Part shown: positions 4,066 through 41,590 of the stretch, piece after piece
Layout: each line of letters begins with the position of its first letter
How positions within the stretch are numbered: position 1 is the stretch's first letter
From: Thermoguttaceae bacterium
GTDB lineage: Bacteria > Planctomycetota > Planctomycetia > Pirellulales > Thermoguttaceae
DNA: 64,000 bases
Direction: 5' to 3'
Assembly: GCA_025060325.1 (NCBI GenBank)
Contig: JANXBW010000012.1
Span: 62,001-126,000 of the forward strand
The notes under the pieces: model-generated
What the model was told of the DNA's origin: nothing
The model's input: the letters and a program-made list of their open reading frames with translations, nothing else
Database searches by the model: none
Program-made: the position numbers and the translations under genes

Positions 4066-5376
4066 ATGAGCCACGATCCGGCGATTTTCCGCGGTATTGG
4101 AACCTTGGCCATCCACGGCGGGCAGGTGCCAGATCCGGTCACCGGGTCTCGGGCGGTACCTATCCACTCCACCACAAGCTACGTCTTTCGCAGCACAGAT
4201 CATGCCGCCAATTTATTTGGCCTGCGAGAGTTTGGCTACATCTACACCCGGCTGATGAATCCGACCACCGACGTATTGGAGCGTCGCCTGGCGGCGCTGG
4301 ACGGTGGCATTGGCGCCTTGGCTTTCTCAAGCGGTCAGGCCGCCATAACCGCCGCCATCCTCACGATCACCCATGCCGGTCAAAACTTCATCTCAGCCAA
4401 CAGTTTGTACGGTGGCACCTGGACCTTGTTTACGCAGACTTTCCCCAAACTGGGTGTTGAGGTGCGTTTTTTTGACCCGCGCGAGCCGGAGGCAATTCAC
4501 CGGCTTGTTGATAAAAATACTCGCGCGGTCTACATCGAAACACCTGGTAACCCCAAGAACGATATCCCCGACTACCAAAAAATTACCGCTATTGCCCACG
4601 AGCACGGACTGCCGGCGATTATCGATAACACCGTCTTGACCCCCGCGCTGTTTCGGCCGATTGAGCACGGGTTTGATATTGTCGTCTATTCGACAACAAA
4701 ATTTATCGGAGGCCACGGTGTGCATCTCGGAGGCGCCGTGGTCGACAGCGGCAAGTTCCCCTGGGCAGCGCAGCCGGAGCGCTGGCCGGAATTTACCGCT
4801 CCGGACCCTGCTTATCACGGTTTAGTATTCGAGGAGGCCTTCCGGCCTTTTGGCAATATAGCCTACATTCTGCACATTCGCACCCATTGGCTTCGTGACA
4901 CTGGGGCGTGCCAAAGCCCCTTTGGCTCTTTTCTCATGCTTTTGGGGCTGGAGACTCTCCACTTGCGGATGGAACGGCATTGCCAAAACGCCTTGGCTGT
5001 GGCCAAGTTCTTGTCGGAACATCCGCTGGTGGAATGGGTCAATTACCCGGGCTTGCCAAGCCATCCGGATTACGAAAACGCGAAGCGCTATCTCACCAAG
5101 GGGTGTGGGGCGCTTGTGGGGTTTGGCATTAAGGGCGGTAAGGAGGCCGCGATTAAGTTCATCAACAGCGTCAAGCTTTTTAGTCACCTGGCCAATATTG
5201 GCGACGCCAAGTCGCTGGTTATTCACCCGGCATCCACGACGCACTCGCAGCTAACTCCGGAAGAGCAACTTCAGACTGGGGTGACTCCGGAATTTATTCG
5301 TCTGTCGGTTGGCCTTGAAGATATTGACGATATTTTGGCCGATTTGGACCAGGCGCTTGCCGCATCGCAGAAATAG
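4066..5376 (+). CDS. metY: O-acetylhomoserine sulfhydrylase (PLP-dependent)
   Basis: A 436-residue member of the Cys/Met metabolism PLP enzyme family (PF01053). It should convert O-acetylhomoserine plus sulfide to homocysteine in the cytosol. Family signatures are the N-terminal GIGTLAIHGGQVPDP, the substrate-loop YIYTRLMNPTTDVLERR (about 58-74), the FSSGQAA turn (87-93), and the PLP lysine K212 in YSTTKFIGGHG. Length is typical for MetY and longer than MetB/MetC (about 380), which favours sulfhydrylase over cystathionine synthase or lyase. AAGGAGAGG precedes the ATG. The gene is 43 bp upstream of the metX-metW fusion in the same direction, which supplies its substrate, so the two form a methionine operon. 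Regulation may act through the inverted repeats upstream. Confidence 0.93.
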   Translation: MSHDPAIFRGIGTLAIHGGQVPDPVTGSRAVPIHSTTSYVFRSTDHAANLFGLREFGYIYTRLMNPTTDVLERRLAALDGGIGALAFSSGQAAITAAILTITHAGQNFISANSLYGGTWTLFTQTFPKLGVEVRFFDPREPEAIHRLVDKNTRAVYIETPGNPKNDIPDYQKITAIAHEHGLPAIIDNTVLTPALFRPIEHGFDIVVYSTTKFIGGHGVHLGGAVVDSGKFPWAAQPERWPEFTAPDPAYHGLVFEEAFRPFGNIAYILHIRTHWLRDTGACQSPFGSFLMLLGLETLHLRMERHCQNALAVAKFLSEHPLVEWVNYPGLPSHPDYENAKRYLTKGCGALVGFGIKGGKEAAIKFINSVKLFSHLANIGDAKSLVIHPASTTHSQLTPEEQLQTGVTPEFIRLSVGLEDIDDILADLDQALAASQK

Positions 5377-5419
5377 GATCAAGGAATTCGAGCGTGCAAA
5401 TTGTGGGCACGGTCCTCCA

Positions 5420-7288
5420 ATGGCACTTAAGCACAAAGATCCGACGCAATTTGATCTTTCCGACCCCTTTGCTAGCAGCGACTCGTGGCGACACGCCCGG
5501 CCGCTTCGCTATGCCCAGTATGCCCATTTCCAGGGGCCATTCGAGCTAGAATGCGGCGGAAGTCTGCCGGAAATTACTGTCGCCTACGAAACTTATGGTC
5601 AGCTAAATGCCGAGGGGTCAAATGCGGTTCTGATTTGCCATGCTCTCTCTGGCGACTCCCATGTTGCCCGCCATCACCCTGAGGATGACCCGGGGTGGTG
5701 GGACATCATGGTCGGGCCGGGCAAACCTATCGACACCGAGCGTTACTTTGTCATCTGCCCCAACGTGCTTGGTGGGTGTCGTGGTACTACCGGTCCGGGA
5801 AGCATCGATCCCCGAACCGGCAGACCTTACGGGGCAGATTTTCCCGTTATTACTGTTGGTGATATTGTTGACGTACAAAGGCTGTTGATGGATCGGCTGG
5901 GTATCAGGCGACTGCTAGCGGTGGTGGGCGGTTCGCTGGGAGGCCATATGGTGCTCGAATGGGCCCGGCGTTATCCGGATCGCTTGGCCGGGGCAGTTGC
6001 GATTGCTACATCTGCTCGCCTGACGAGCCAGGCCTTGGCATTTGATATCGTTGGCCGAAACGCCATCATCCGCGACCCGCATTATCAAAATGGGCAGTAC
6101 TACGGCAACGGCCCGGGGCCGACAGTCGGATTGGCCTTAGCCCGGATGCTCGGCCATATCACCTATCTATCCCGCGAAGCAATGATGAAAAAATTCGATG
6201 CCCGCCGTTTGGAACCTCATCAAATCCAAACGCTTTTTGAGGTGCGGTTTAACGTGGGCTCCTATCTCGCCTACCAAGGGGAGCGGTTCGTCGAGCGTTT
6301 TGACGCTAATAGCTACCTGCGGCTGACGCTGGCCATGGATCTTTTCGACCTAGGGGACACGTCGGAGAAGCTGACGGCCGCTTTACGCCCGGCCCAATGT
6401 CGCTGGCTCCTCCTGAGCTTCACCTCCGACTGGCTCTTTCCCCCCTTCCAATCCCAGGAGCTTGTCCGGGCATTAGTGGCGGAGAATAAGCCGGTCACTT
6501 ATTGCAACGTGCCTTCTGAGTGTGGACATGATGCCTTTTTGCTGCCGAACGATCTGCCCATATACGGCTCGTTAATCGAGGCATTTTTGAACCGACTTTT
6601 GGCGGAGGAAGCCAGATCGGAGGCGGCGTTCTCGGAAAATGTTGACGTCGACGAGGACGAGTCGCTCGGACCTTCTAGCATTTATCGACATCACCGGTTG
6701 GATTACGACTGCATCTTGGAGCTGATCCCGCCGGGAGCCTCGGTGTTGGACTTGGGGTGCGGCACGGGCGGGCTGTTGGCTCGCTTGCGCCGGCGGGGTC
6801 ACAAGAGGCTGGTAGGGGTTGAGCTTGATCCCCAGGCAATTCTGACTTGTGCCCGCCGAGGACTGGATGTCATCCACATGGACATCAATCGCGGGCTGGG
6901 AATTTTTGCCGATGACCAGTTCGACTGCGTGGTTTTGTCGCAAACGCTTCAAGCGGTGACCAATGTCAAGCATGTCTTGGCGGAGTTGCTTCGCGTAGGT
7001 AAGCGAGGGATTGTGAGCTTCCCCAATCTGGCCTACCGGCGCTGGCGGGAGGAGTTGGCCGTCCACGGAAGGGCACCCCGGATGGGGGCCGCGGCAGGTT
7101 TCCATTGGTATGATACACCTAATGTCCGCTTCTTTTCTATTCGCGACTTCGAGGAACTCTGCCAGGAGATGAACATCTGTGTTGAGGAGAAGGTGGCGCT
7201 TAACACCGAGCTTGACACGATTGTCACCGATGATCCCAATCTAAATGCCGATGTAGCGGTTTTTGCCATTTCGCGGCGGGGTCGGTAG
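5420..7288 (+). CDS. metXW: Fused homoserine O-acetyltransferase (MetX) and MetW-like methyltransferase domain
   Basis: A 622-residue two-domain protein. Residues about 15-395 are MetX, an alpha/beta-hydrolase that acetylates homoserine with acetyl-CoA. The nucleophile is S172 in VVGGSLGGHM, and the triad is completed by D337 (TSDWLFPP) and H370 (SECGHDAF). Residues about 420-622 are a MetW-type Rossmann methyltransferase with the SAM motif VLDLGCGTG (443-450), then VGVELDP and a C-terminal part close to stand-alone MetW. An acidic linker (DVDEDES) joins them. In many bacteria metX and metW are adjacent genes and MetW helps MetX, so the fusion locks a known pair together. The ATG at 5420 starts the conserved region; an upstream in-frame ATG at 5309 lies inside metY and is unlikely to be used. 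Confidence 0.92.
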   Translation: MALKHKDPTQFDLSDPFASSDSWRHARPLRYAQYAHFQGPFELECGGSLPEITVAYETYGQLNAEGSNAVLICHALSGDSHVARHHPEDDPGWWDIMVGPGKPIDTERYFVICPNVLGGCRGTTGPGSIDPRTGRPYGADFPVITVGDIVDVQRLLMDRLGIRRLLAVVGGSLGGHMVLEWARRYPDRLAGAVAIATSARLTSQALAFDIVGRNAIIRDPHYQNGQYYGNGPGPTVGLALARMLGHITYLSREAMMKKFDARRLEPHQIQTLFEVRFNVGSYLAYQGERFVERFDANSYLRLTLAMDLFDLGDTSEKLTAALRPAQCRWLLLSFTSDWLFPPFQSQELVRALVAENKPVTYCNVPSECGHDAFLLPNDLPIYGSLIEAFLNRLLAEEARSEAAFSENVDVDEDESLGPSSIYRHHRLDYDCILELIPPGASVLDLGCGTGGLLARLRRRGHKRLVGVELDPQAILTCARRGLDVIHMDINRGLGIFADDQFDCVVLSQTLQAVTNVKHVLAELLRVGKRGIVSFPNLAYRRWREELAVHGRAPRMGAAAGFHWYDTPNVRFFSIRDFEELCQEMNICVEEKVALNTELDTIVTDDPNLNADVAVFAISRRGR

Positions 7289-17412: not shown

Positions 17413-19296
17413 CTATTCCGGCAGATAGCGGAGAAAGAGGGCCGCGTGAAAAACGATGCCGTGAATTTTAGCCAGCCCAGGAAGCAGTTCTCCTGACCAC
17501 CGGCCTCCCCCGATTGTCGCCGTCGCCACCAAAAGAGGGCAGCTCGCCGCACTCAGGGCAAGCAAAAGTGGACCGACTCGCCAATGTTTAGCACCTGCTG
17601 CAGATAAAAGCCCAATCGCGGCGAACAAAGCGCAACCAACTACGAGCGGAAAAAGGCTGGATCCTTTCGCCCGTTTATCCGCGCTCACGTGCCGCGGAGA
17701 ACTAGAAATGATTAATTTTTGTTCCAATATCAACTCAAGTCGCCGAAAGACCTCGTGCCAAGACATGACAAGGATGAGTGTAACAATCAACTCTCCGAGT
17801 TTTGGTGAAGGATGCATAAGCGCGGCAACAACGGCAGCCAACCCGGCGATCATGGCCCGCTGATCGGCCGTTGGTCGAAGAAGCTTTCCTCCTATTCCCG
17901 CGGTCAACGCGGCACAACTTCCCACCCACACGGAAAGCGAGCTACCGCCGGAAAGACCGCAAAAAGCAGCGGTTGACCCGGCCCAAAAGAGTGCTCCCAG
18001 TAAACTTCTGCACAGCTCGCGATGGGTCTCGCTTAAAAAAGGCCAAGCGCCAATAGCCTGGTTGATAAAGACCGCCAGATTTTCCCGCAATATCAACAGC
18101 CCCGTCAGCCAAATGAAAACTGCCGCCAAACCTCCGACGAGTACCTCCAAGGGAATGTGCCTGGGAAAACTAGCGGCAAGCCCGGCGAGAAATGCCCCAC
18201 AACCTGCGAGCACCGTAGTTAAGGGCAGTCGTTTTGATTCGTCAACAACCCATGTCGTCCAGTGGCGGCAGCGGGTATTGACCTCCTTGACAACTGGGAT
18301 GGTACAGCTTGAAAAAGCAAGCACCACGCCGACGAGGCCCAAAAAGGCGTGTAAGGTGGTAAGAATAATTGGGAATCGAGCGACCCCTTGCAAAGCTAGT
18401 TGCCAATTTGCAAACCAATCGATAAACCACCAGGGTACGCCAAACCGCGACAGCCAGGTGGCAGCTCCCATCGCCATTTGGAGCAGAACTATACTTCCTA
18501 GTACACGTAACCGGCAAGTATAAGCGTCATCTTTCCGATTTGCGGATCGGGGACTCAGTAAGCCGCCAAGCCAAATGGCTACCACGCCAAGCCCCAAACC
18601 GGAAAGAAGGTGGACCCACGCCCAGAAGTTAAACCAAAACGGGCTTCCGGCTGGCGAGGCGTGGCGCACCTGGGTTCCAAACACAGTTTGTAGATAAATC
18701 CACAAAGCAAAAATGACGGGAGCGACCCTAAATCGCGACGGGCATCCGATTGCCCAAGAGGGGGGCACAAGTTTGATGCTACGGGATAGAAAGACCCCGG
18801 CCCACACGGCGGCCAGAACAAGCGGGGCGGTTCCGGCAAGGAGTTGTGCACTTCCTGCGCTTTGCGTCAACACTCGAAGGCCCCCGAGCGAGGCCTGCAC
18901 AACAAGCATCGTCGGCATCAACAAAAGAAAACACCTACCTTGCCATGTTGGCAAAGTCCGCCATCTGGCAATCGCAAAGCCCACGGCCAAAACGATGGCC
19001 GACCAGCCAGCAAGGCGATGGAGGTAAGCTAACGCAATTTCCCATGGGGAATTAGAAACAAAGGGCAGCCATCGGCCTGGCGGCAGAAGAAAAGGAGGGT
19101 AGGCAAAGTTCGTAGGCCAATCCGGGATGGCAAGCCCTGCACCCAAGCTTGCGATGAGTGTGCCAAGGAAGGCCGCCGTCCAGGTTAAAACCCAGAGCAG
19201 GTATCCGATTTTGTCCTCAAGTTCCCAAGAGGAAGTTAAACCCTTACCCTGTTGACACGATTCCATCTCGAAACTGTTGCTCAAGCTAAAGTTCAA
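17413..19296 (-). CDS. CtaA/COX15-like haem A synthase with extra C-terminal membrane region
   Basis: A 627-residue membrane protein. Residues about 30-335 resemble CtaA/COX15 (PF02628), which oxidises haem O to haem A for cytochrome oxidase. It has two four-helix halves, each with haem-ligand histidines (YLHRLAGWS and WVHLLSG; LHAFLGL) and the QASLGG loop motif. The remaining 290 residues form a second membrane region of about eight hydrophobic segments that I cannot assign. It lacks the DRxxD prenyltransferase motif, so it is not a CtaB fusion. Normal CtaA is 300-400 residues. Start uncertain: TTG at 19296 or ATG at 19266. It is last in the respiratory block, 85 bp after the dihaem cytochrome. 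Confidence 0.7.
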   Translation of the reverse strand: MNFSLSNSFEMESCQQGKGLTSSWELEDKIGYLLWVLTWTAAFLGTLIASLGAGLAIPDWPTNFAYPPFLLPPGRWLPFVSNSPWEIALAYLHRLAGWSAIVLAVGFAIARWRTLPTWQGRCFLLLMPTMLVVQASLGGLRVLTQSAGSAQLLAGTAPLVLAAVWAGVFLSRSIKLVPPSWAIGCPSRFRVAPVIFALWIYLQTVFGTQVRHASPAGSPFWFNFWAWVHLLSGLGLGVVAIWLGGLLSPRSANRKDDAYTCRLRVLGSIVLLQMAMGAATWLSRFGVPWWFIDWFANWQLALQGVARFPIILTTLHAFLGLVGVVLAFSSCTIPVVKEVNTRCRHWTTWVVDESKRLPLTTVLAGCGAFLAGLAASFPRHIPLEVLVGGLAAVFIWLTGLLILRENLAVFINQAIGAWPFLSETHRELCRSLLGALFWAGSTAAFCGLSGGSSLSVWVGSCAALTAGIGGKLLRPTADQRAMIAGLAAVVAALMHPSPKLGELIVTLILVMSWHEVFRRLELILEQKLIISSSPRHVSADKRAKGSSLFPLVVGCALFAAIGLLSAAGAKHWRVGPLLLALSAASCPLLVATATIGGGRWSGELLPGLAKIHGIVFHAALFLRYLPE

Positions 19297-19381: not shown

Positions 19382-20626
19382 TCATTTCGCATGCCCTGCC
19401 GACTCGAGGCAACGCGGAAGTTGTCCGGAGAGGCTCCTCACGAACCAGACAACCTGCCAAATCTCCGCCGGGTTAAGAACGCCTGGTACCTCCGGGGAGC
19501 CCCCAGCGCCGGGCATGGGGGTCCCCTTCAGACCGACCGCGATTCGAAGGTAAAGATCCTCCGGCCGGTTGCCCCCGCGAAAGAGGTCTTCTTTTAGATT
19601 TCGCGCTCTTAGCCGCCGCAGTGGAAGCGTGTACAACCTGGCCCTTTTTTCCGTCTGGTTGGCGTCGGGACTCCTCTTAGGGTAGTTCCAATCATCGTAA
19701 AGACTGCCGGCCTGCTCCCCATCGCCTGCCCCTTCTAAACCATGACATTTAGAGCACTGGGCGCGAGCGCTTAGATAGATTTCCTTTCCCTGCTGGACCC
19801 AAGCCGCCCGCTCTTGCTTGTCGTCGAAAGACGGAGCGCTGGGGGGTTTTACCACTACCCGATCGGGTTCAACCTCTGGTGCGCGCCACTGGCTGGCAAT
19901 AAAGGCAATATCCTCATTTACGAACCGTTCTTTGAATGGGACAGTGAGAGGGAGCGGTTCTTCTTCATCCACGACATATTGGATAAGCAGAAGTTCTGTC
20001 TCCCCGCGAATAGCAAGATAGATGACGTAGTCCACAAGGGCTTCGATCACGTCGGATCCCAGGCGGGAAAAACCCGGCATGCCGCTTCCTGGAAGGCCAT
20101 CGCGGACCCCGCGGCGGATGTCCTCTCGGCTGGGCTTGGCGCCTGGGACCGTGGAGGTGTAAACAAAAATCCCCCGCCGAAAATCGCGGGGATAGGGATC
20201 CATCACCAAAGCGGCCGGGCCAGCTCCGTCTCCACTAATTCCATGACAGCGGGCACAGTAACGCCGGTAGTATCCCCGACGAATAACAGCCGTCCCTTGA
20301 GCATCCACGTCGCCCACTGGGTGGCCAGCAGCTTGTTTAAGCCGGCCCAAATCCAGATCCACGCCCGGCGGAAGCCGCGGCTCATCAGGCGTGCCAAAGA
20401 GCTCCTCTAGGAACCGTGTGATCTCCTCGCGAGCAAGAGATGATATCTCGGCCGGATCGCGTCCCTCCAAATTGAGGCGGAAAGACGCGCCCGGTGGCTC
20501 CTGACAGCCGCTCCCAATCATCAACGTAAGAAACAACGCCACAACCCGCCGGCAGGTGCTCCCAGGACTTTGTGGTCCCCAGAGACGGGCGCTCGTAACA
20601 AAGCCGCGATCCTCCGGAAAGTTCAT
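19382..20626 (-). CDS. Dihaem c-type cytochrome lipoprotein
   Basis: A 414-residue exported cytochrome c. The N-terminus ends in a lipobox (LMIGSGC, Cys41), so it is probably anchored as a lipoprotein. Haem sites are CARCH at 124-128 and CSKCH at 291-295; both follow the single-domain class I pattern CxxCHGxxGxGxG. Likely axial methionines are in GSGMPGFS (about 183) and KGTPMPGAGG near the C-terminus. Each half is an NrfE/CccA-sized mono-haem domain, giving a two-domain electron shuttle. It lies 237 bp after the Tat-exported gene and 85 bp before the CtaA-like gene in the same direction. Its place beside an octahaem cytochrome suggests periplasmic electron transfer towards an oxidase. The start codon is uncertain because the Shine-Dalgarno is weak. 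Confidence 0.9.
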   Translation of the reverse strand: MNFPEDRGFVTSARLWGPQSPGSTCRRVVALFLTLMIGSGCQEPPGASFRLNLEGRDPAEISSLAREEITRFLEELFGTPDEPRLPPGVDLDLGRLKQAAGHPVGDVDAQGTAVIRRGYYRRYCARCHGISGDGAGPAALVMDPYPRDFRRGIFVYTSTVPGAKPSREDIRRGVRDGLPGSGMPGFSRLGSDVIEALVDYVIYLAIRGETELLLIQYVVDEEEPLPLTVPFKERFVNEDIAFIASQWRAPEVEPDRVVVKPPSAPSFDDKQERAAWVQQGKEIYLSARAQCSKCHGLEGAGDGEQAGSLYDDWNYPKRSPDANQTEKRARLYTLPLRRLRARNLKEDLFRGGNRPEDLYLRIAVGLKGTPMPGAGGSPEVPGVLNPAEIWQVVWFVRSLSGQLPRCLESAGHAK

Positions 20627-20863: not shown

Positions 20864-21670
20864 TTACGTCTGGAAAAGCGCCGGCGGTAAGCGAATTGTG
20901 CCCAGATCCACCGTGGTTCCAGGTTTAATCTCAACATTGAACCGTCCCCGGGGCCAAGTGGCGACCTGCAGGTAGCCTATCCGCTCCTGCCAGACCTGGA
21001 ATTCGTGCCTGCCGGCCGGGAGTTTATCGATTTCAAACGTGCCATCTGGCCGGCTGATCGCCATGTAAGGATTATCTCGAACAAGGATGTAAGCGCTTTC
21101 CCAAGGATGGTAGTTGCACTTTACTAAGAAGGGCGCCACTTGTGGGCGGCGGAATTCCCAGAGGGCTTCGGCTGTGGGACCGGGCGGCGGGGTGAGGATG
21201 ATATTGGCCGGCCGATCTCCTAACGGCGAAAAAGCCACATTTTGAGCCACCGGATCGGAGTTGACAATGTAGAGCTTCTGCCGCGGAACCCAAACGGTCA
21301 GACAATGCGGGATAAATATGCAGTCCCGGTTGTCAAGCAGAACTCGCTCGGGAGTTTCATCGGCCAATTCCGGCGGAATGTTCCCGGGACGGGAGCGCAG
21401 GTAAACAAAGACGTTAGCCAGGCCACCGTCCGGCCCGACCATAAGCGATTCGTCCCGAATGTCAAACTTTCCGCAACATTCGATGTCTCTGTCAACAACT
21501 AATTTTTTCCGTTCAGGGGTAGGCCCATCGTAAACAAATCTGCCCCGCAGGCATCCCCAGGGTTGACTTGCCCCATGAGTAACGCGGGGCACTGCAAGCA
21601 ACCCCGCGACCAGTGCCCCAGCCCCAACAGCTTTCCTGCCGAAGACCCGCCGAGAAATCTGTCCACGCAT
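20864..21670 (-). CDS. Tat-exported beta-rich protein of the respiratory block
   Basis: A 268-residue protein if started at the ATG at 21670, where the Tat signal begins (ISRRVFGRKAVGAGAL, cleavage near THGAS). A longer frame begins at an ATG at 21790, but that start nearly touches the previous stop codon with poor spacing. The mature part is beta-rich: a cupredoxin-like region (about 40-185) with VNSDPVAQNVAF and VKCNYHPWESAYILV, then a carboxypeptidase regulatory-like sandwich (AISRPDGTFEIDKLPAGRHEF). Such proteins accompany multihaem cytochromes in planctomycetes. The Cys-x-x-His pair in CNYHPW could bind copper; that is inference. No enzyme motif was recognised. Confidence 0.75.
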   Translation of the reverse strand: MRGQISRRVFGRKAVGAGALVAGLLAVPRVTHGASQPWGCLRGRFVYDGPTPERKKLVVDRDIECCGKFDIRDESLMVGPDGGLANVFVYLRSRPGNIPPELADETPERVLLDNRDCIFIPHCLTVWVPRQKLYIVNSDPVAQNVAFSPLGDRPANIILTPPPGPTAEALWEFRRPQVAPFLVKCNYHPWESAYILVRDNPYMAISRPDGTFEIDKLPAGRHEFQVWQERIGYLQVATWPRGRFNVEIKPGTTVDLGTIRLPPALFQT

Positions 21671-21793
21671 TTGGTCTTGCACGCGTCCTTTTCTCCGCCA
21701 AAGTAAGGTTCCATTCGGGGGAATTCCGGCGAAAAACCCGCGCCTCACCCACCAGAGGTGTTCCCCGAAAACGTTGCGGTGCTTGTCCATCCC

Positions 21794-24700
21794 TCATGGA
21801 GCTACTTCAAGCCCCATTTTGGAGCGACGCCACCATTCCCGCAAGAAAGCGGGATAGTTGGTCAGAAGATCGACGACCGCTTCGATCTGCGCCTCAGGCG
21901 GACCAGGGAGGAGATCCTGCCCAATCGGGGGCCCTGTCGGCGGAAAATTGACCGGCATGGCTGTATAGGGGACATATCGACGGGGGTCAGCAATCCATCG
22001 GCGGAGGTAACTTGGGCGAAGCCTACCGGCAACTTCGTCCAAACGGGGGCCAAGGGCAATGGCGGAGAGCTTGCTGGGGGATCGATCCCCCACCAGGTGG
22101 CACTTTCCGCAAAATACTTGGCGGTCCACTATCAGGCGAAAAGCTTGGAGTCTTCGCTGGAAAAGCTGATCGAAGCCTTCGCTCAGGTTACCGGCCCCTA
22201 ATTCCCGCTCCAACCGATCCAGGCGGGCTAACGAGTCTTGGTCTTCCTCGGGCGGGGAGGCCGGCGATTGCGACGGCGAAAAGCTTGCTTGGTGTGACTG
22301 GTCCCCCGTGGCTGCCCCCTGGATTGGAGATTGCTGGTTCCCTTCGAGGAGGACGTTACGCGTTAAGGAAAGCGCAGCGTCAATCGGCGCTCCAGCGGCC
22401 TGCAAGCTCTCGTCCATTTCCCAGATGAGCCCCCTAGCGCGGCGACGGGTGGACAAGAATTCCAGGCAGGCTGCCAAGGCGTCCGCTTCTTCCGGGGAGA
22501 TATGGTACCGGGGCATGTTAAGCACCACGCTTGGCCGAATGGGGTACGGGTCGCGAATGTAGTTAGCAGTCCACGTTCGACCGGTGCGCTCCGCCTGATG
22601 AATAAGTGGGGGCGGAAGGAGGTTCCACAAGTCGGCAGCCGTGGCAGTTAGCTCCTCGCCCAAGACCGGCACTAAAAGCCATGGGAAGTGGCCGCCGACA
22701 GCTCCCCGGGCGGCAATAACGCGCGGGATGTCGGGCGGTTCTGGCAGCCGAGCAAGGAGGCCGTTGGCTTTCTGAGCTGGGAACGGAGAGTCCAGGGCTT
22801 GGCCCCCTGGGATGCCATCGCCGGGCCGGTGTGAGGACAGGCCCGATTGAGAGGGCATTCGGCGGTCAAAAATCCTCTTGAAGCGCTCCTGCGCCGAAAG
22901 GCGAAGCGAGCCTCCCCTTCGCAGCCAACTTGGATCGACCGGCGCTATCTCCCAGGGAGGCGGTCCAAGCGGCGTGTTTTCCCTGGCGCTGTCCAAAGCT
23001 CGCGCAACGATGCTTAAGGAGTCAACCATCGGGACCTGTCCGGCGCCCGGCTCCCAAAAGTGCCAAGCTCCCTCGACCCAAACAGGTTCCGGTCGCCAAG
23101 GCGTAACGAAAAATTGCGGCTCGTCGTCACCTAGTTCCTCAATAGGCCGAGACTGGGTATCCCGCTCCACCATTCCCCACAATTCCGCCGGAAGGGCAGG
23201 GCCACTTGGGTGGGGAGGCCAGGAGTCGCCTGGCTTAAGCCGCGGGCGCAGCCACGGGAAAGTCTCCGGCGGAGGGGGTGTGGGCAACCGAGCGGGATCG
23301 TACTCAACCACAATCCGCTCCCAGTCGAGCACATGACACTGACTGCAACCCAACCGCTCAAGAAGCCGCATCCCCTGGGCGACACGCTCACCCTCCTCGG
23401 GGGTTTTCGGGCGCACCTCTTCGGGCAAAGCTCGGCCACTCAAGCCCAATACAAAGGTCATGACAGCAAGCAGCTCATCATCGCGCCACCGGAACTGCGG
23501 CATTCGGAGCCACTGGGTAAATGGCTTACGTTCAGCCCGGGTAAAGTCGAATGCTCGCGGGTGCCGCAATTTGAGCCATAACAGCCCCTCCCGCCTCCCC
23601 TCGATAAAGGCGGCTGCCAGGTTGGATTCGGTCGAAGGCGAAGTGGCGTTCGGTGCCGAAGCGCTTTCCGTCGCACCATCCTTGGAGGGGTTATGAGGAG
23701 CTTCCCCTGGCCGCGGAGAGCCTTCAACCCCCTCTTCCCTTCCAAGACCAGCGATTCCATTTTTTTGGGAAAGACTAGTAGAGTTCGGTTCCGAAAACGA
23801 TACCGCCCTAGATTGATCATCTCGATAGACATCTAGCCTCGACGTGCCCCCGGTGACGACCTCGTCCCAAATCCGTGATTTCAGTGCCTCCTCTCCAAAA
23901 TCGAGGGCCTGAGGCCATTTGTCCCCCCAGCCCGTGAGACTTGGCCCGATGGGGTTAGCTAGCTCAAGGCCAGGAATTTCGTGGCAGCCGGCGCACCCGT
24001 GGCGTCTCATGGCCTTACGCGCGAGGTAGAGCGTTCGAGCCTCCTGGCCTGGGTGGCCAAGGAAGTCGCGTTCATCCGTCCCAAGCTGGGCAAGTTGTTC
24101 CTCCGGCACGGCTTCCAGGAGGAAACGGTCCGCCTCCTGGGGTGGGAAAACTTCGCGCAAGTAAAGTCTAAGAGCCTCCCGACTCATTTCTTCCGACGGA
24201 AGGGGCGGCGGCTTTAGCCGGGTTTTAGTCGGCTGCAGTAGGAAAGCAACAAGATCGGCAATGACAACCTCTTCGGGGGTTAAATCGGTGTCGACAGCCG
24301 GGCTTTGAGGCGCCCGGGGAGCAGGTGGAGTGGGCGATTCTGAGGAATAGTTGCGGTTAGGAGAAGGAGAGTCTCCATTTGGAGAGCTCCAGACCTTAAA
24401 GAGGAGGCGAGGCATGTTCGTCCGGGGGGAAAGCGCCGCCGGATTGGAAAGCCACCCTCTCAGCCACTGTGGGCCTTGTCCTTCGTCGAGCTTCTCCCCC
24501 AGACGTGATAAATCCGGGCCAATTGTGGGGCTTGCTTCCGGGAACCGTTCATGCCGGTGACAGGCAATACACCCCTGCCTAACAAAATAAGCCTCCCCGC
24601 GCGTAGAGTCCCCCGGCTGAAGTTCTTGAGCCCCTGGGTTGGCCCCGGGTGCGGCTTGCTTTGACAACGAGGAGCGCGCTGCCCGATTGGCGTCGGACGG

Positions 24701-26491
24701 CAAGCGGCCCGTGAGATAGAAAGTAATGGCCACGATTTCCGCAAGTTCCAAACCCTCGGCCCCCTCGCGCTGCGAAGAGCTAAGGTGGTCGTAAAGCCCG
24801 AAAACGCGGGGCATTTTGCTTTCGGCAGAGTAGCTCTGAGGATCCCAGAGGAACGCCGCGACAAAATCCGCAGAGAGCTTCTGCCCAGCATGCCGCAGAC
24901 TTGGGCCAACTTTTGGCAAGCCACTTCCGGCGGAAAGGTCTTCTCTTCGCAGATCGACAACTATCCTGCGAAGTTGATCGGACAACCCGGAGGAGCTGCC
25001 TGCCGCTTCTGGCAGTAAGCGGGGAGGCCGGGTCTCTGCGCCGGAATTCCTGGAAGAGTTCGCGCTACTCTCATCCAGTTTGCCCGGGTTGATCAGCTTC
25101 TCTAAGCTCTCGGCGAGTGCCCAGCGGGCGGGGACATTCCACGGGGCATTTCTAACCAGTTCCGCGGCACACCGAAGTTCATCGGTCAGCGCCGGGTGGG
25201 CTAACAACAACCCAGCAAGCTCATGATAAGGTCGCTCAAGCCGCAATTCCGGCCCCACCTGCCGTCCCGCCTGGTCGAGACCCGCGATCTCATGGCATCC
25301 GTAGCACCCGAGTCGTAACACGGTCTGGTAACCCTTTAACCACAGGGTACCCGTGGTCTCTCCCTCCCACGCTGAGTGGACGAGTTCCTCGGGTTGGTGA
25401 TGACATTGTCCGCAGCTTGCCTCGCCCAGTCCTACCGGCCGCATGGGCCATGGCCACTCTTTGCCGGAAGACCAGTTGCGCGCCCTTCGGGCCGTTTTCG
25501 CGCCGAGAATCTCCAGCCGATAGTGCCCGGCGTTTTCGAAACTAGTAGCCGCCCCCTGACCCCAGTGGCAAATGGTGCAGCCAAATTTGTCCACAGGATG
25601 GGGCGAGTCGGGACTGATAAACAAATCCGGCCGTGGATGCGCAGCAAAAGGGTGAGGGAGCCCGCGCCGGACCAGAAGTTCAAGAGTCCCTTGGCGCTCA
25701 AGCTCGCTCAAAATGATTGTGGCCGCCTCGGCTGGCTCCGTAGGCTTAGTTTGGCCCACACGCAACAAACGATCCCCCGGCAGAAGCCCGGCCCGATCCG
25801 CCAGCGATCCCTCGCGCACTGCCACCACCAGGACTTCGGTTCGTCCACACAGGTGGCCCCGGGCAAGGAAGATGCCTGTTACTGCAGCCAACCGGTCCTC
25901 GGGTATCGCGGCAGCTAGTGTGCTCGCTTGTGGTGAATCCGTACGGGAAGCTTCGGCGAGCTTGCCAGTTGGTCCCGATAATCGGACGTGTACAAAACGC
26001 TCCTTCTGGACATCCACTTGCCACGGCCAGCCCACATTGCTGGGAGCCATCCCTTGATGACAAGTGATGCACCGATCGATGCGATCGGCAGTGCCAAAAT
26101 GGAGGTCAAGGCGAATACCCGCCGGGCGAATTTCCTCGACAGAAACCCGGCGGAGAAAGGGCTCGAAGAACGGCCCACCGTAGAGCCATCTCAACCAAGC
26201 CGGCGGGCGCCGCGGTGGTTGGAATTTACTCGGGCTTAAGGATGCGGACAAATGGCGGTCAATCTCCGCGCCAAACTGAGTGATTTTGTCCAGCCAAGGA
26301 CGAATCTCTTCTCGATACTGGAGTTGGTACTTTTTCCACGGCCGGTTGTGATCAACAACAAGCAAAGCGACGGTCGCCACAAGTAGCCCGACTGCCCCCA
26401 AAGCAAAAAGATAATGGAGCCTAAAAATGTCGACATAAATGTCGCCTTGCTCCGTTTGAGGTTCCACTTGACCAGGTGAAGAATAACTCAT
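21794..26491 (-). CDS. Giant membrane-anchored octahaem cytochrome c with PDZ-like domain
   Basis: A 1565-residue protein. One N-terminal TM helix (about 25-47) anchors it, leaving the rest outside the membrane. Eight CxxCH haem sites are visible: CITCH 141, CTICH 305, CGQCH 360, CYGCH 396, CIACH 641, CAGCH 833, CSQCH 1049 and CGKCH 1461. A PDZ-like domain (about 205-275, core GSLADRAGLLPGDRLLRV) lies between haems 1 and 2. Axial-methionine patterns such as KMPRVF, NMPRLL, RMPQFR, NMPRYH and AMPVNF follow most sites. Pro/Ser-rich, low-complexity spacers separate the modules (about 470-505, 700-735, 895-960). It heads the four-gene respiratory block. An electron conduit role is inferred; no catalytic partner such as cytochrome b or a molybdoenzyme is adjacent. 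Confidence 0.93.
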   Translation of the reverse strand: MSYSSPGQVEPQTEQGDIYVDIFRLHYLFALGAVGLLVATVALLVVDHNRPWKKYQLQYREEIRPWLDKITQFGAEIDRHLSASLSPSKFQPPRRPPAWLRWLYGGPFFEPFLRRVSVEEIRPAGIRLDLHFGTADRIDRCITCHQGMAPSNVGWPWQVDVQKERFVHVRLSGPTGKLAEASRTDSPQASTLAAAIPEDRLAAVTGIFLARGHLCGRTEVLVVAVREGSLADRAGLLPGDRLLRVGQTKPTEPAEAATIILSELERQGTLELLVRRGLPHPFAAHPRPDLFISPDSPHPVDKFGCTICHWGQGAATSFENAGHYRLEILGAKTARRARNWSSGKEWPWPMRPVGLGEASCGQCHHQPEELVHSAWEGETTGTLWLKGYQTVLRLGCYGCHEIAGLDQAGRQVGPELRLERPYHELAGLLLAHPALTDELRCAAELVRNAPWNVPARWALAESLEKLINPGKLDESSANSSRNSGAETRPPRLLPEAAGSSSGLSDQLRRIVVDLRREDLSAGSGLPKVGPSLRHAGQKLSADFVAAFLWDPQSYSAESKMPRVFGLYDHLSSSQREGAEGLELAEIVAITFYLTGRLPSDANRAARSSLSKQAAPGANPGAQELQPGDSTRGEAYFVRQGCIACHRHERFPEASPTIGPDLSRLGEKLDEGQGPQWLRGWLSNPAALSPRTNMPRLLFKVWSSPNGDSPSPNRNYSSESPTPPAPRAPQSPAVDTDLTPEEVVIADLVAFLLQPTKTRLKPPPLPSEEMSREALRLYLREVFPPQEADRFLLEAVPEEQLAQLGTDERDFLGHPGQEARTLYLARKAMRRHGCAGCHEIPGLELANPIGPSLTGWGDKWPQALDFGEEALKSRIWDEVVTGGTSRLDVYRDDQSRAVSFSEPNSTSLSQKNGIAGLGREEGVEGSPRPGEAPHNPSKDGATESASAPNATSPSTESNLAAAFIEGRREGLLWLKLRHPRAFDFTRAERKPFTQWLRMPQFRWRDDELLAVMTFVLGLSGRALPEEVRPKTPEEGERVAQGMRLLERLGCSQCHVLDWERIVVEYDPARLPTPPPPETFPWLRPRLKPGDSWPPHPSGPALPAELWGMVERDTQSRPIEELGDDEPQFFVTPWRPEPVWVEGAWHFWEPGAGQVPMVDSLSIVARALDSARENTPLGPPPWEIAPVDPSWLRRGGSLRLSAQERFKRIFDRRMPSQSGLSSHRPGDGIPGGQALDSPFPAQKANGLLARLPEPPDIPRVIAARGAVGGHFPWLLVPVLGEELTATAADLWNLLPPPLIHQAERTGRTWTANYIRDPYPIRPSVVLNMPRYHISPEEADALAACLEFLSTRRRARGLIWEMDESLQAAGAPIDAALSLTRNVLLEGNQQSPIQGAATGDQSHQASFSPSQSPASPPEEDQDSLARLDRLERELGAGNLSEGFDQLFQRRLQAFRLIVDRQVFCGKCHLVGDRSPSKLSAIALGPRLDEVAGRLRPSYLRRWIADPRRYVPYTAMPVNFPPTGPPIGQDLLPGPPEAQIEAVVDLLTNYPAFLREWWRRSKMGLEVAP

Positions 26492-27387: not shown

Positions 27388-27774
27388 TTAGCGAGCACGC
27401 CGCTTGGGCGCCGCTGCCTTTGGCTTCGGTCGAGCACGCCGACGAAGCGGGGAAGGCCGAATCGGCTCCTGGGTCGAAATCGCATCAATCAACTTGCCCA
27501 CCTGCTCCGGGAGGCGCTCCTTTAGTTGACGCCACAGTCCCCGCTGCTTCCAGCGACGATATCGCTGATACACAGCATTCCAGTCACCATACTCCGCGGG
27601 TAAACCACGCCACGGGCAACCCGTTTTCGCCCGATGAAGAAGCGCTTCAAGGAACGCCCTGTCGGACAATTTGGTCGGCGCGCCCAACCGTGTCCGCACC
27701 TGCTTCAAAATGGCCTCGATCTGCTTCCAGGCGCGGTCCGTCAACGAGGGAATGTTGCGTTCTGCTTTTGCCAT
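27388..27774 (-). CDS. Stand-alone DUF4096 (IS4/IS5-type transposase N-terminal) protein
   Basis: A 128-residue protein matching DUF4096 (PF13340), the DNA-binding N-terminal part of IS5-group transposases. The signature is visible in LTDRAWKQIEAIL and CPWRGLPAEYGDWNAVYQRY, followed by RRWKQRGLWRQL. In complete elements a second frame with the DDE catalytic domain follows, often by frameshift. Here the frame ends in a basic tail (RRRARPKPKAAAPKRRAR) and no DDE region follows in any frame. It has a good ribosome binding site (AGGAAATCCC before the ATG) and its own terminator. So it is either the remnant of an insertion sequence or a domesticated DNA-binding protein. No flanking terminal inverted repeats were recognised. 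Confidence 0.8.
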   Translation of the reverse strand: MAKAERNIPSLTDRAWKQIEAILKQVRTRLGAPTKLSDRAFLEALLHRAKTGCPWRGLPAEYGDWNAVYQRYRRWKQRGLWRQLKERLPEQVGKLIDAISTQEPIRPSPLRRRARPKPKAAAPKRRAR

Positions 27775-39997: not shown

Positions 39998-41590
39998 GTG
40001 ACGTCGAAAATTCGCTCCCCGGCAGTAGCGGGGGTGTTTTATCCAGCCAATCGGGAAAGCTTAATCGCTACCGTCGATCGGCTCCTCAGTCAGGCGCCGG
40101 ATCTTGGGCTGAGTGGGGTTCGGGCACTTATTGTGCCTCACGCGGGCTACACGTATTCCGGCCCTGTGGCCGCCGTTGCTTACCGGCAGATTCGAGGGGC
40201 CCCTTTTCGCCGAGTCGTGATTCTCGCCCCGTCTCACTTTGGCTTATTCCGTGGCGTGGCTGTGGTCGCTGAGGGAGTTTTCAGTACGCCTTTGGGAGAC
40301 GTGCCCATTGATCCCCTCGCCAAAAAATTGGCGGAGTGTGCGCCCTTTTTCCCGGAACGGCCGGTGCCTGCAGAAGTGCCTGGCTGGGCGGCCTACTGTT
40401 TGGGAATGGTCCCCCGGCAAGAGCTCCCACACCGTTGGGAGCATTCGATCGAAGTGCAATTGCCCTTCCTCCAGCGCTGTCTGCAGGAGTTTTCTCTCAT
40501 CCCTGCACTTCTTGGCGAGGTCAATCCGCGGGAAGTAGCCGAGACGCTTTCCCCCTTCGTTGATGAAGAAACGCTGCTAATTGCTTCCTCCGATCTTAGC
40601 CATTACCTGCCGCAGGAAGAAGCCAATGTTGTCGACCAAGCCACCTTAGAGAAAATTCGCCGCCTAGACACGACTGGTGCGGCCGACTTAGATGCATGCG
40701 GTCGATTACCGATCGCCACCTTGCTCCACCTGGCCCAACAGTTTGGCTGGCAACCGCAGATTCTCGAGTACAAAACAAGTGGGGATATATCCGGAGACTA
40801 TAGTGCTGTCGTCGGTTACGCAGCGGTGGCCTTTTGTGGGCTAAGGCGTGATTCCGCCGAAGCCGCCGGGGAAACGACAGAAGCTGCCGCTGGCCCCCCG
40901 CTCCACGACTTACGGGAGGGGAAGCGGACATCTTTGCCAAAGGAGGACTCCTCTGCAGTCAGTGTGCGCGATACCCCCCGCCCATGGGGTTTTTCGCCAC
41001 AAGAAAAGCAGATCCTTCTTGACCTTGCCCGCGAAGCTATTCGCCGCGCAGTTTGTCAACTGCCGCCGCCTCAGGTCCACCCCGCCGAATTGCCGGAGAG
41101 GCTCCGTCGACCCGGGGCCTGCTTCGTCACTCTTAAGGTCGACGGCCAATTGCGTGGATGTATTGGCACTCTTTCACCGAAAGAACCTCTTTATCTGGCT
41201 GTCATTCGTCGAGCGGAAGCCGCAGCCACCAGTGACCCCCGGTTTCCCCCGGTAGGACCGGAGGAACTTGACAGGCTGTCGGTGGCAATAAGTGTGCTGG
41301 GAGAATGCCGACCGCTTGAGGCGTCAACGCCGGAAGAGATCCTCATCCGGCTTGAGCCGGGTAGGCATGGCGTGGTTCTCCGGGTGGGGTCCCACCATGC
41401 AACTTTCCTGCCTCAGGTGTGGGAACACTTTCCGGACAAAATCATCTTCTTGGAAAAGTTGGCGGCTAAGGCGGGACTTTTTCCGGACGCGTGGCGCCGG
41501 CCGGAGGCAAGGATCGAAGTTTACGAAGCGGAAATCCTCTCCACCGATGACGAAGCACAGCCCGACTGCGGGCTAGATACAACCGCATGA
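39998..41590 (+). CDS. Memo-AMMECR1 fusion (AmmeMemoRadiSam system proteins B and A)
   Basis: A 530-residue protein. Residues about 5-285 are a Memo-like domain (PF01875) related to class III extradiol dioxygenases, with putative metal ligands H48 (IVPHAGYTYSG) and H80 (LAPSHFG) and further marks WEHSIEVQLPF and ASSDLSHYLP. Residues about 330-520 are an AMMECR1 domain (PF01871) with CFVTLKVDGQLRGCIGTL and FLPQVWEHFPDK. A charged linker joins them. Together with a radical SAM protein these make the AmmeMemoRadiSam set, whose biochemical role is unknown; B and A are usually separate genes. No radical SAM gene is present here. The start is GTG with a GAGGAA upstream. Confidence 0.9.
   Translation: MTSKIRSPAVAGVFYPANRESLIATVDRLLSQAPDLGLSGVRALIVPHAGYTYSGPVAAVAYRQIRGAPFRRVVILAPSHFGLFRGVAVVAEGVFSTPLGDVPIDPLAKKLAECAPFFPERPVPAEVPGWAAYCLGMVPRQELPHRWEHSIEVQLPFLQRCLQEFSLIPALLGEVNPREVAETLSPFVDEETLLIASSDLSHYLPQEEANVVDQATLEKIRRLDTTGAADLDACGRLPIATLLHLAQQFGWQPQILEYKTSGDISGDYSAVVGYAAVAFCGLRRDSAEAAGETTEAAAGPPLHDLREGKRTSLPKEDSSAVSVRDTPRPWGFSPQEKQILLDLAREAIRRAVCQLPPPQVHPAELPERLRRPGACFVTLKVDGQLRGCIGTLSPKEPLYLAVIRRAEAAATSDPRFPPVGPEELDRLSVAISVLGECRPLEASTPEEILIRLEPGRHGVVLRVGSHHATFLPQVWEHFPDKIIFLEKLAAKAGLFPDAWRRPEARIEVYEAEILSTDDEAQPDCGLDTTA

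Follow-up and report, generated by a model that had tools for sequence, protein, structure and literature searches.

A PDZ-bearing octahaem cytochrome c of Thermoguttaceae, most likely a subunit of a b6f-like complex III

The giant octahaem cytochrome c encoded in the window (the whole stretch of 64,000 nucleotides that was analysed) is most likely the periplasmic c-type subunit of a b6f-like complex III, in which it would replace cytochrome c1 or f. We put the probability of this reading at about 0.82. It is favoured because in many relatives the gene follows those for a Rieske protein, a b6-like cytochrome and a subunit-IV-like protein, and precedes those for a dihaem cytochrome c and an aa3-type oxidase. 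The reading assigns a probable role, together with a map of candidate haem ligands, to a giant protein that occurs across Planctomycetota and has been poorly annotated.

Results

A single membrane-anchored chain with eight haem motifs

The octahaem gene lies on the minus strand, with an ATG start and 1565 codons, and is followed by three genes on the same strand. The features are listed below in the direction of transcription, with residues numbered as in the window protein.

21794..26491, minus strand: octahaem cytochrome c, 1565 aa, the probable c-type subunit of a b6f-like Rieske/cytochrome b complex (open reading frame, motifs, family, synteny)
26351..26416, minus strand: N-terminal transmembrane helix, residues 26-47 (sequence; helix 14-48 in the predicted model)
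26057..26071, minus strand: haem 1, CITCH, residues 141-145 (motif)
25661..25909, minus strand: PDZ domain, about residues 195-277, with PDZ_6 at 222-267 (Pfam, model, PDB matches, conservation)
25637..25639, minus strand: H285, candidate distal ligand of the tri-haem module (invariant in 93/93 homologues)
25598..25600, minus strand: H298, candidate distal ligand of the tri-haem module (invariant in 93/93 homologues)
25565..25579, minus strand: haem 2, CTICH, residues 305-309 (motif)
25523..25525, minus strand: H323, candidate distal ligand of the tri-haem module (invariant in 93/93 homologues)
25400..25414, minus strand: haem 3, CGQCH, residues 360-364 (motif)
25292..25306, minus strand: haem 4, CYGCH, residues 396-400 (motif); candidate ligand M560 at 24812-24814
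24557..24571, minus strand: haem 5, CIACH, residues 641-645 (motif); candidate ligand M693 at 24413-24415
23981..23995, minus strand: haem 6, CAGCH, residues 833-837 (motif); candidate ligand M997 at 23501-23503
23333..23347, minus strand: haem 7, CSQCH, residues 1049-1053 (motif); candidate ligand M1326 at 22514-22516
22097..22111, minus strand: haem 8, CGKCH, residues 1461-1465 (motif); candidate ligand M1512 at 21956-21958
20864..21790, minus strand: cupredoxin-like/carboxypeptidase-regulatory-like protein, 308 aa, adjoining the octahaem gene (conserved; Pfam matches below cut-off only)
19382..20626, minus strand: dihaem cytochrome c, 414 aa (motifs, Pfam; conserved downstream)
17413..19296, minus strand: apparent remnant of a CtaA/Cox15-like haem A synthase, 627 aa, at the end of the gene run (Pfam, alignment)

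The initial annotation had described eight CxxCH sites on one membrane-anchored chain, and the protein indeed carries eight such motifs and one hydrophobic N-terminal helix; when its residues were shuffled (2000 shuffles), the mean number of motifs was 0.0035 and the maximum was 1. Most homologues begin at window residue 10, and the true start may therefore lie about nine codons further in. What the earlier reading missed is the most likely role of the protein, as the c-type subunit of a Rieske/cytochrome b complex.

Only Cytochrom_C, FixO and PDZ_6 score above their Pfam cut-offs on the window protein. The stretch of haems 1-3 resembles cytochrome c7, a match that is below cut-off in the window protein and is found at E 0.01 in 30 of 32 family members, and the remainder of the chain resembles class I cytochrome c and FixO. 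Candidate distal ligands were sought by aligning each inter-haem segment separately in 93 eight-motif homologues, 18 of them phylum-wide and 75 from named contigs. Three histidines (H285, H298, H323) and five methionines (M560, M693, M997, M1326, M1512) are invariant in the whole set, giving one candidate per haem; H26, taken as a control, is conserved in 9/18 phylum-wide and 72/75 named-contig homologues. The predicted layout is a bis-His tri-haem module (haems 1-3) followed by five His/Met domains (haems 4-8). Octahaem cytochromes of the HAO/OTR type have a close-packed bis-His octahaem core. We rejected this type for the window protein, which has no HAO-type family among its Pfam matches above cut-off, has motifs up to 412 residues apart and has five invariant methionines.

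Structure models were predicted for the protein chain alone, free of haems and partners. The model of residues 1-720 is of moderate quality (mean pLDDT 74.1, pTM 0.58); that of residues 500-1565 has a mean pLDDT of 74.4 and a pTM of 0.77, with 212 of its 1066 residues under pLDDT 50. These models bear on the proposal of the initial annotation that several cytochrome domains are joined by flexible linkers rather than forming a compact wire. Linkers of low confidence do occur, near residues 883-950, 1170-1238 and 1371-1418, but the pTM of 0.77 suggests that the C-terminal domains are packed in a defined arrangement, and the proposal holds only in part. Searching the PDB by sequence gave nothing at E 0.01 for the window protein. 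Foldseek found no solved counterpart of the whole C-terminal fold in 39 matches up to E 10, the best of which (E 0.074) were SoxX and other class I cytochromes c.

A conserved but patchy family

Counting the window's own, 38 of 60 genomes have a member of the octahaem family, and an N-terminal profile at E 1e-15 matched 112 of 244 sampled genomes of the phylum, with eight motifs confirmed only for a subset of these. All 32 open reading frames longer than 900 aa carry exactly eight motifs, in a set from which two shorter pieces of L063 and one of L064 were left out. An alignment-based scan of named contigs gave at least 517 matches, of which the best 80 were kept, making 79 loci; eight motifs are found in 75 of their 78 frames longer than 600 aa, the exceptions being L116, L118 and L143, on short contigs, with 7, 6 and 7 motifs, while one locus (L120) has no frame above that length. 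The two sets partly overlap through shared contigs (for example L042 = L074 and L031 = L075). A scan of the contigs with the single protein found no relatives, and none of its 13 pattern stretches was confirmed. Eighteen of the 19 loci inspected in the phylum sample hold an eight-motif frame, with none at L196 in our frame call, and the N-terminal profile had no match in six of nine same-order genomes outside the window's family in that sample, all of family f16. The octahaem family is conserved in planctomycetes but patchy.

Several public bins labelled Candidatus Kuenenia stuttgartiensis (L093, L097, L106, L107 and L110) carry the octahaem gene together with genes of the operon. L097 and L106, as well as L033, from a 'same order' genome and with a contig equal in length to that of L093, group with the PDZ-bearing members of the order in a FastTree phylogeny, and the labels on these bins look wrong. 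Nine frames of 813-1235 aa in the window's genome, which sits with Thermoguttaceae, match the hydrazine synthase domain HZS_alpha (PF18582); this domain is therefore too unspecific to serve alone as an anammox marker. With the nitrous oxide reductase domain (PF18764) there was no match, nor was there one in the controls.

Gene neighbourhood and probable complex III partners

A recurrent gene order was found in many relatives: Rieske protein, N-terminal and C-terminal parts of cytochrome b, octahaem cytochrome, one or two cupredoxin-like proteins, dihaem cytochrome c, CoxII, CoxI, CtaA and CtaB. Among the 79 loci (the best 80 of at least 517 matches), the Rieske gene was seen in 49, the two cytochrome b parts in 46 and 59, the cupredoxin-like gene in 54, the dihaem gene in 47, and CoxII and CoxI in 35 each, counts that are lowered by many short contigs and by a simple frame caller that misses some genes. 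The Rieske and cytochrome b assignments are borne out by Pfam in the window's genome and at the locus L193; the Cox and Cta names in relatives are our reading of the sequences, with Pfam support for CoxI and CtaA in the window or its genus.

In the window, the octahaem, cupredoxin-like, dihaem and CtaA-like genes are still together. Rieske and cytochrome b genes are not among the frames beside the octahaem gene in the window's genome (G000) or in its genus-mates G001 and G002. In G000 the octahaem gene is on contig C3, and the three genes for the Rieske, b6-like and subunit-IV-like proteins are clustered on C11; in G001 a b6-like gene is found on the octahaem contig, about 34 kb away. A tblastn search of the window for relics of the Rieske, cytochrome b, CoxI, CoxII and CtaB genes found none at E 0.01, and Rfam had no match in 10.5 kb round the octahaem gene. 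About 0.9 kb upstream of that gene, at the position where many relatives have the Rieske and cytochrome b genes, there is an N-terminal fragment of an IS4/5-type transposase (27388-27774, minus strand; DUF4096, E 1.9e-24), which may mark a rearrangement.

The separation of these genes bears on one alternative, in which the protein would be a multihaem wire or electron store, standing free in the periplasm and docking partners through its PDZ domain, whose gene just happens to lie near respiratory genes. The low-confidence linkers would fit it. Against this stand the synteny with Rieske and cytochrome b genes across the order, the presence of a homologue in a cluster resembling Kustd1480-1485 (L193), and the co-occurrence of the two gene types: a b6-like match that counts as strong (from about 267 bits up, a cut set after the table had been seen) is found in 33 of 38 octahaem-bearing genomes and in 1 of 22 others, with a Fisher p of 1.6e-10 that overstates independence since the genomes are related. 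Five of the 38 octahaem-bearing genomes had no strong cytochrome b match. Taken together, we hold a free-standing wire to be improbable and retain the complex III subunit.

The cupredoxin-like gene is present in a single copy in the window and often in two in relatives, and the fold name given to its 308-aa product is our reading of the sequence, the Pfam match being below cut-off. Outside the window's family the protein mostly keeps a possible type 1 copper set (His, Cys, His, Met; HN...CxxHxWM); within the family it reads QN/QS...CxYHPWE, and copper may therefore have been lost there. The dihaem cytochrome c is the probable next electron carrier.

Two fused genes were seen elsewhere in the window. 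One frame at 5309-7288 (plus strand) joins an alpha/beta hydrolase, by our own reading of the MetX kind, to a MetW methyltransferase domain, and another at 39998-41590 (plus strand) joins Memo-like and AMMECR1 domains.

Terminal oxidases in the window's lineage

Both CoxI and CoxII are present in G002. CoxII was found neither in G000 nor in G001, and the only CoxI-family protein above cut-off in G000 is of the nitric oxide reductase type, with one match of similar score in G001. The aa3 oxidase is thus likely to be absent from these two genomes, with an uncertainty set by their completeness of 95.6% and 92%, respectively. The CtaA-like protein of the window and its G001 orthologue are without the Glu of EHxHR and a second His (that of H[GA]xx[GA]P), which are kept in the eight other aligned rows, from outside the genus, and which we take to be catalytic residues of haem A synthase. 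This would be consistent with a loss of haem A synthesis, and the CtaA-like frame of the window looks like a decaying remnant. Where electrons go in these two genomes, with no detectable aa3 oxidase, is a question that they raise. A cytochrome bd-type match above cut-off (44-54 bits) is present in each of the three genus members.

The octahaem contig of the window's genome also carries a second Rieske/cytochrome b complex (L071:3950-7486, that is G000:C3, about 14.9-18.5 kb). Its cytochrome b, 909 aa long, is fused to a c part with four CxxCH motifs in all, and it has its own Rieske protein.

The PDZ insert

The initial annotation had placed a PDZ-like module between haems 1 and 2 and proposed that an HMM search, a structure prediction and a search of other planctomycetes be applied to it. 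PDZ_6 (PF17820) matches residues 222-267 at E 8.5e-7, with 29.1 bits against a cut-off of 27, and the call stands; PDZ_2, PDZ and other PDZ models are below their cut-offs. Few parts of the N-terminal half are modelled better than residues 201-280 (ten-residue pLDDT means of 92-97), and the 50 PDB matches listed for the N-terminal model are PDZ entries, the best with E 1.1e-3, probability 1.00 and a target TM of up to 0.78; none of the matches listed is at or below E 0.001. The same domain order recurs across the window's order, and 26 of the 32 family members scanned have a PDZ_6 match at E 0.01. The insertion point lies between haem 1 and a conserved PFxxHP stretch.

Motifs 1 and 2 are at least 110 residues apart in 109 of 130 loci with spacing data, two of which (L195 and L198, outside the order) have no PDZ match in Pfam. 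In members that have no PDZ domain the spacing is 39-67 residues, or 100 in L202, the value of 55 in L116 being that of a truncated frame. A segment of PDZ length is kept in 75 of 76 rows of one set and in 29 of 32 of the other. The domain is absent from L056, L057 and L060 of the 32, which belong to the window's family (f1), and from L114 of the 76, a Thermoguttaceae record that branches among them in FastTree; none of the six proteins that were scanned from beyond the order had a PDZ match at E 0.05. The PDZ-bearing order forms a clade of 57 rows with a support of 99 in the FastTree phylogeny, which came with long-branch warnings. From this tree the history reads as one gain, approximately, at the base of the window's order and about four losses in one family; the 7 changes printed on the tree are an overstatement, since L195 and L198 were labelled as PDZ-bearing by spacing only. 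Given the losses and the absence from the relatives checked outside the order, the PDZ domain is dispensable.

It was suggested in the initial annotation that this domain may dock a partner. We take XΦGΦ to be the carboxylate-binding loop of PDZ domains, and Gly206 to be its glycine. Gly206 and Asp240 are invariant in 75/75 rows, Gly239 is kept in 74/75, and residue 207 is Phe, Leu, Ile or Met in 73/75; residue 205, before the loop glycine, is Tyr in 63/75 rows and Thr in the window protein. Judged from this conservation, the family probably binds a ligand, with less certainty in the case of the window protein. Docking is plausible and stays putative, and homologues devoid of the domain exist. 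The same data leave a serious, though less than even, chance that the protein is the same complex III subunit with a PDZ domain that binds nothing, as a structural spacer or a fossil insert. The repeated losses, the Thr in the place of the usual Tyr, and the PDZ-less homologues that retain all eight haem motifs and candidate ligands would fit such an inert insert; the conservation of the loop glycine, of Gly239 and of Asp240, and the retention of the segment in nearly all rows of both sets, speak for a binding domain.

If the domain does bind, its ligand could be sought within the complex itself. After removal of duplicates, the last residue of the subunit-IV-like protein is Phe in 60 of 69 PDZ-bearing loci as against 1 of 12 PDZ-less ones, and the very end of the Rieske protein reads [FY][VI]x[VA] in 51 of 57 as against 2 of 11, with PDZ presence judged by haem spacing and confounded by ancestry. 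These differences are suggestive at most since both follow taxonomy, and ancestry explains the association equally well, most PDZ-less rows with tails coming from other orders or classes. The subunit-IV-like tail, which by our reading would be on the periplasmic side, is conserved even in PDZ-less rows. In the window's genome the subunit-IV-like protein has the Phe end (...PEWRVHF), and the [FY][VI]x[VA] tail is absent from the Rieske protein. With this in mind, one may speculate that the PDZ domain captures the periplasmic C-terminus of a subunit of the same complex, the candidates being the Phe end and the Rieske tail, and thereby holds or times the mobile Rieske head or locks the assembly. 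We regard this idea as doubtful; if true, it would make the complex a PDZ-regulated quinol:cytochrome c oxidoreductase. The insert in any case raises the question of a peptide-binding domain that gates or assembles complex III.

Discussion

According to the model that we favour, complex III would be made up of a four-helix cytochrome b, a subunit-IV-like protein, a Rieske protein and, instead of cytochrome c1 or f, the octahaem protein. Quinol would be oxidised at the p-side site, and the b haems would carry one electron back to the quinone pool. The other electron would pass from the Rieske protein to the octahaem protein and then to the dihaem cytochrome c, joined in many relatives by the cupredoxin-like protein, and finally to a terminal acceptor, which in many relatives would be an aa3-type oxidase. 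The PDZ domain, lying beside haem 1 in the chain, would most likely bind another subunit, at its C-terminus or at an internal segment, and so may serve assembly or steer a partner. The motifs, their conservation, the synteny and the co-occurrence are observations; membership of the complex, the path of the electrons, the haem ligands and the role of the PDZ domain are deduced from them.

SoxX is a single small monohaem protein with Sox partners, and the reading of the window protein as a SoxX-type thiosulfate-oxidation cytochrome, which an NCBIfam model proposes (TIGR04485, 98.3 bits against a cut-off of 61) and to which the weak structural matches (best E 0.074) could be added, is outweighed to the point of being negligible, as the score is a sum over four stretches of one 1565-aa octahaem chain, no Sox protein was found among the 29 other window frames scanned against Pfam, and the Foldseek matches look like generic class I cytochrome c. 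The same model is a likely source of misnaming in databases.

The proposed complex shares with cytochrome b6f/bc1 complexes the Rieske protein and a cytochrome b that is split, by Pfam, into b6-like and subunit-IV-like parts; it differs from them in having an octahaem protein instead of the single-haem cytochrome f or c1. A precedent for a PDZ domain and c-type haem (CxxCH) in one chain exists in the magnetochrome proteins MamP and MamE. Unlike these, the window protein showed no sign of a magnetosome setting in the genes scanned; its PDZ region matches MamE only weakly (E 0.019), and its haem domains resemble class I cytochrome c by Pfam, C7 staying below cut-off.

In Thermogutta terrifontis, according to the available part of the report, there are a complex III and an aa3 oxidase and no typical cytochrome c, a two-haem protein being the only candidate (PMC5673643); the octahaem protein may bear on this gap. 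Rieske paralogues of the b6f-like kind are mentioned for Planctomycetes in the accessible text of another paper (PMC4013037).

The closest known systems are two unusual complexes of Kuenenia. As described in the part of the source that was available, these contain a b6-like four-helix cytochrome b, a subunit-IV-like protein, a Rieske protein and a cytochrome c of six or eight haems that takes the place of cytochrome f; they include NAD(P) oxidoreductases, and their multihaem subunits have a transmembrane helix (PMC12954380). From that text we infer that Kustd1485, the larger multihaem subunit of Kuenenia stuttgartiensis, is the octahaem one. Two loci with family homologues (L193 and L201; eight-motif proteins of 948 and 946 aa) have a gene composition like that of Kustd1480-1485, and at L193 the homologue, which conserves all eight candidate ligands, stands beside Rieske, b6, subunit IV and Pyr_redox/Fer4 oxidoreductase genes by Pfam. 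Because of this shared composition, as far as the source describes it, we filed the window protein with the octahaem subunits of the Kustd1480-1485 kind, a likeness judged by gene content. Common to both, within that description, are eight CxxCH motifs, an N-terminal helix and, encoded alongside in many relatives, Rieske, b6-like and subunit-IV-like partners. The window protein differs from the L193 homologue in its length (1565 against 948 aa), in its haem 1-2 spacing (164 against 39 residues) and in having the PDZ domain. The operons of its relatives differ from the Kuenenia complexes, as far as these are described, in having a dihaem cytochrome c and an aa3-type oxidase, and no NAD(P) oxidoreductase in the usual order.

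Our literature search, thin on subscription papers and hence weak evidence of novelty, found no description of a PDZ-bearing subunit, and an octahaem complex III in anammox planctomycetes only. The insertion of a PDZ domain would be a new variation on a known subunit of multihaem Rieske/cytochrome b complexes, and the family links such complexes of the anammox type to planctomycetes with aa3 oxidases.
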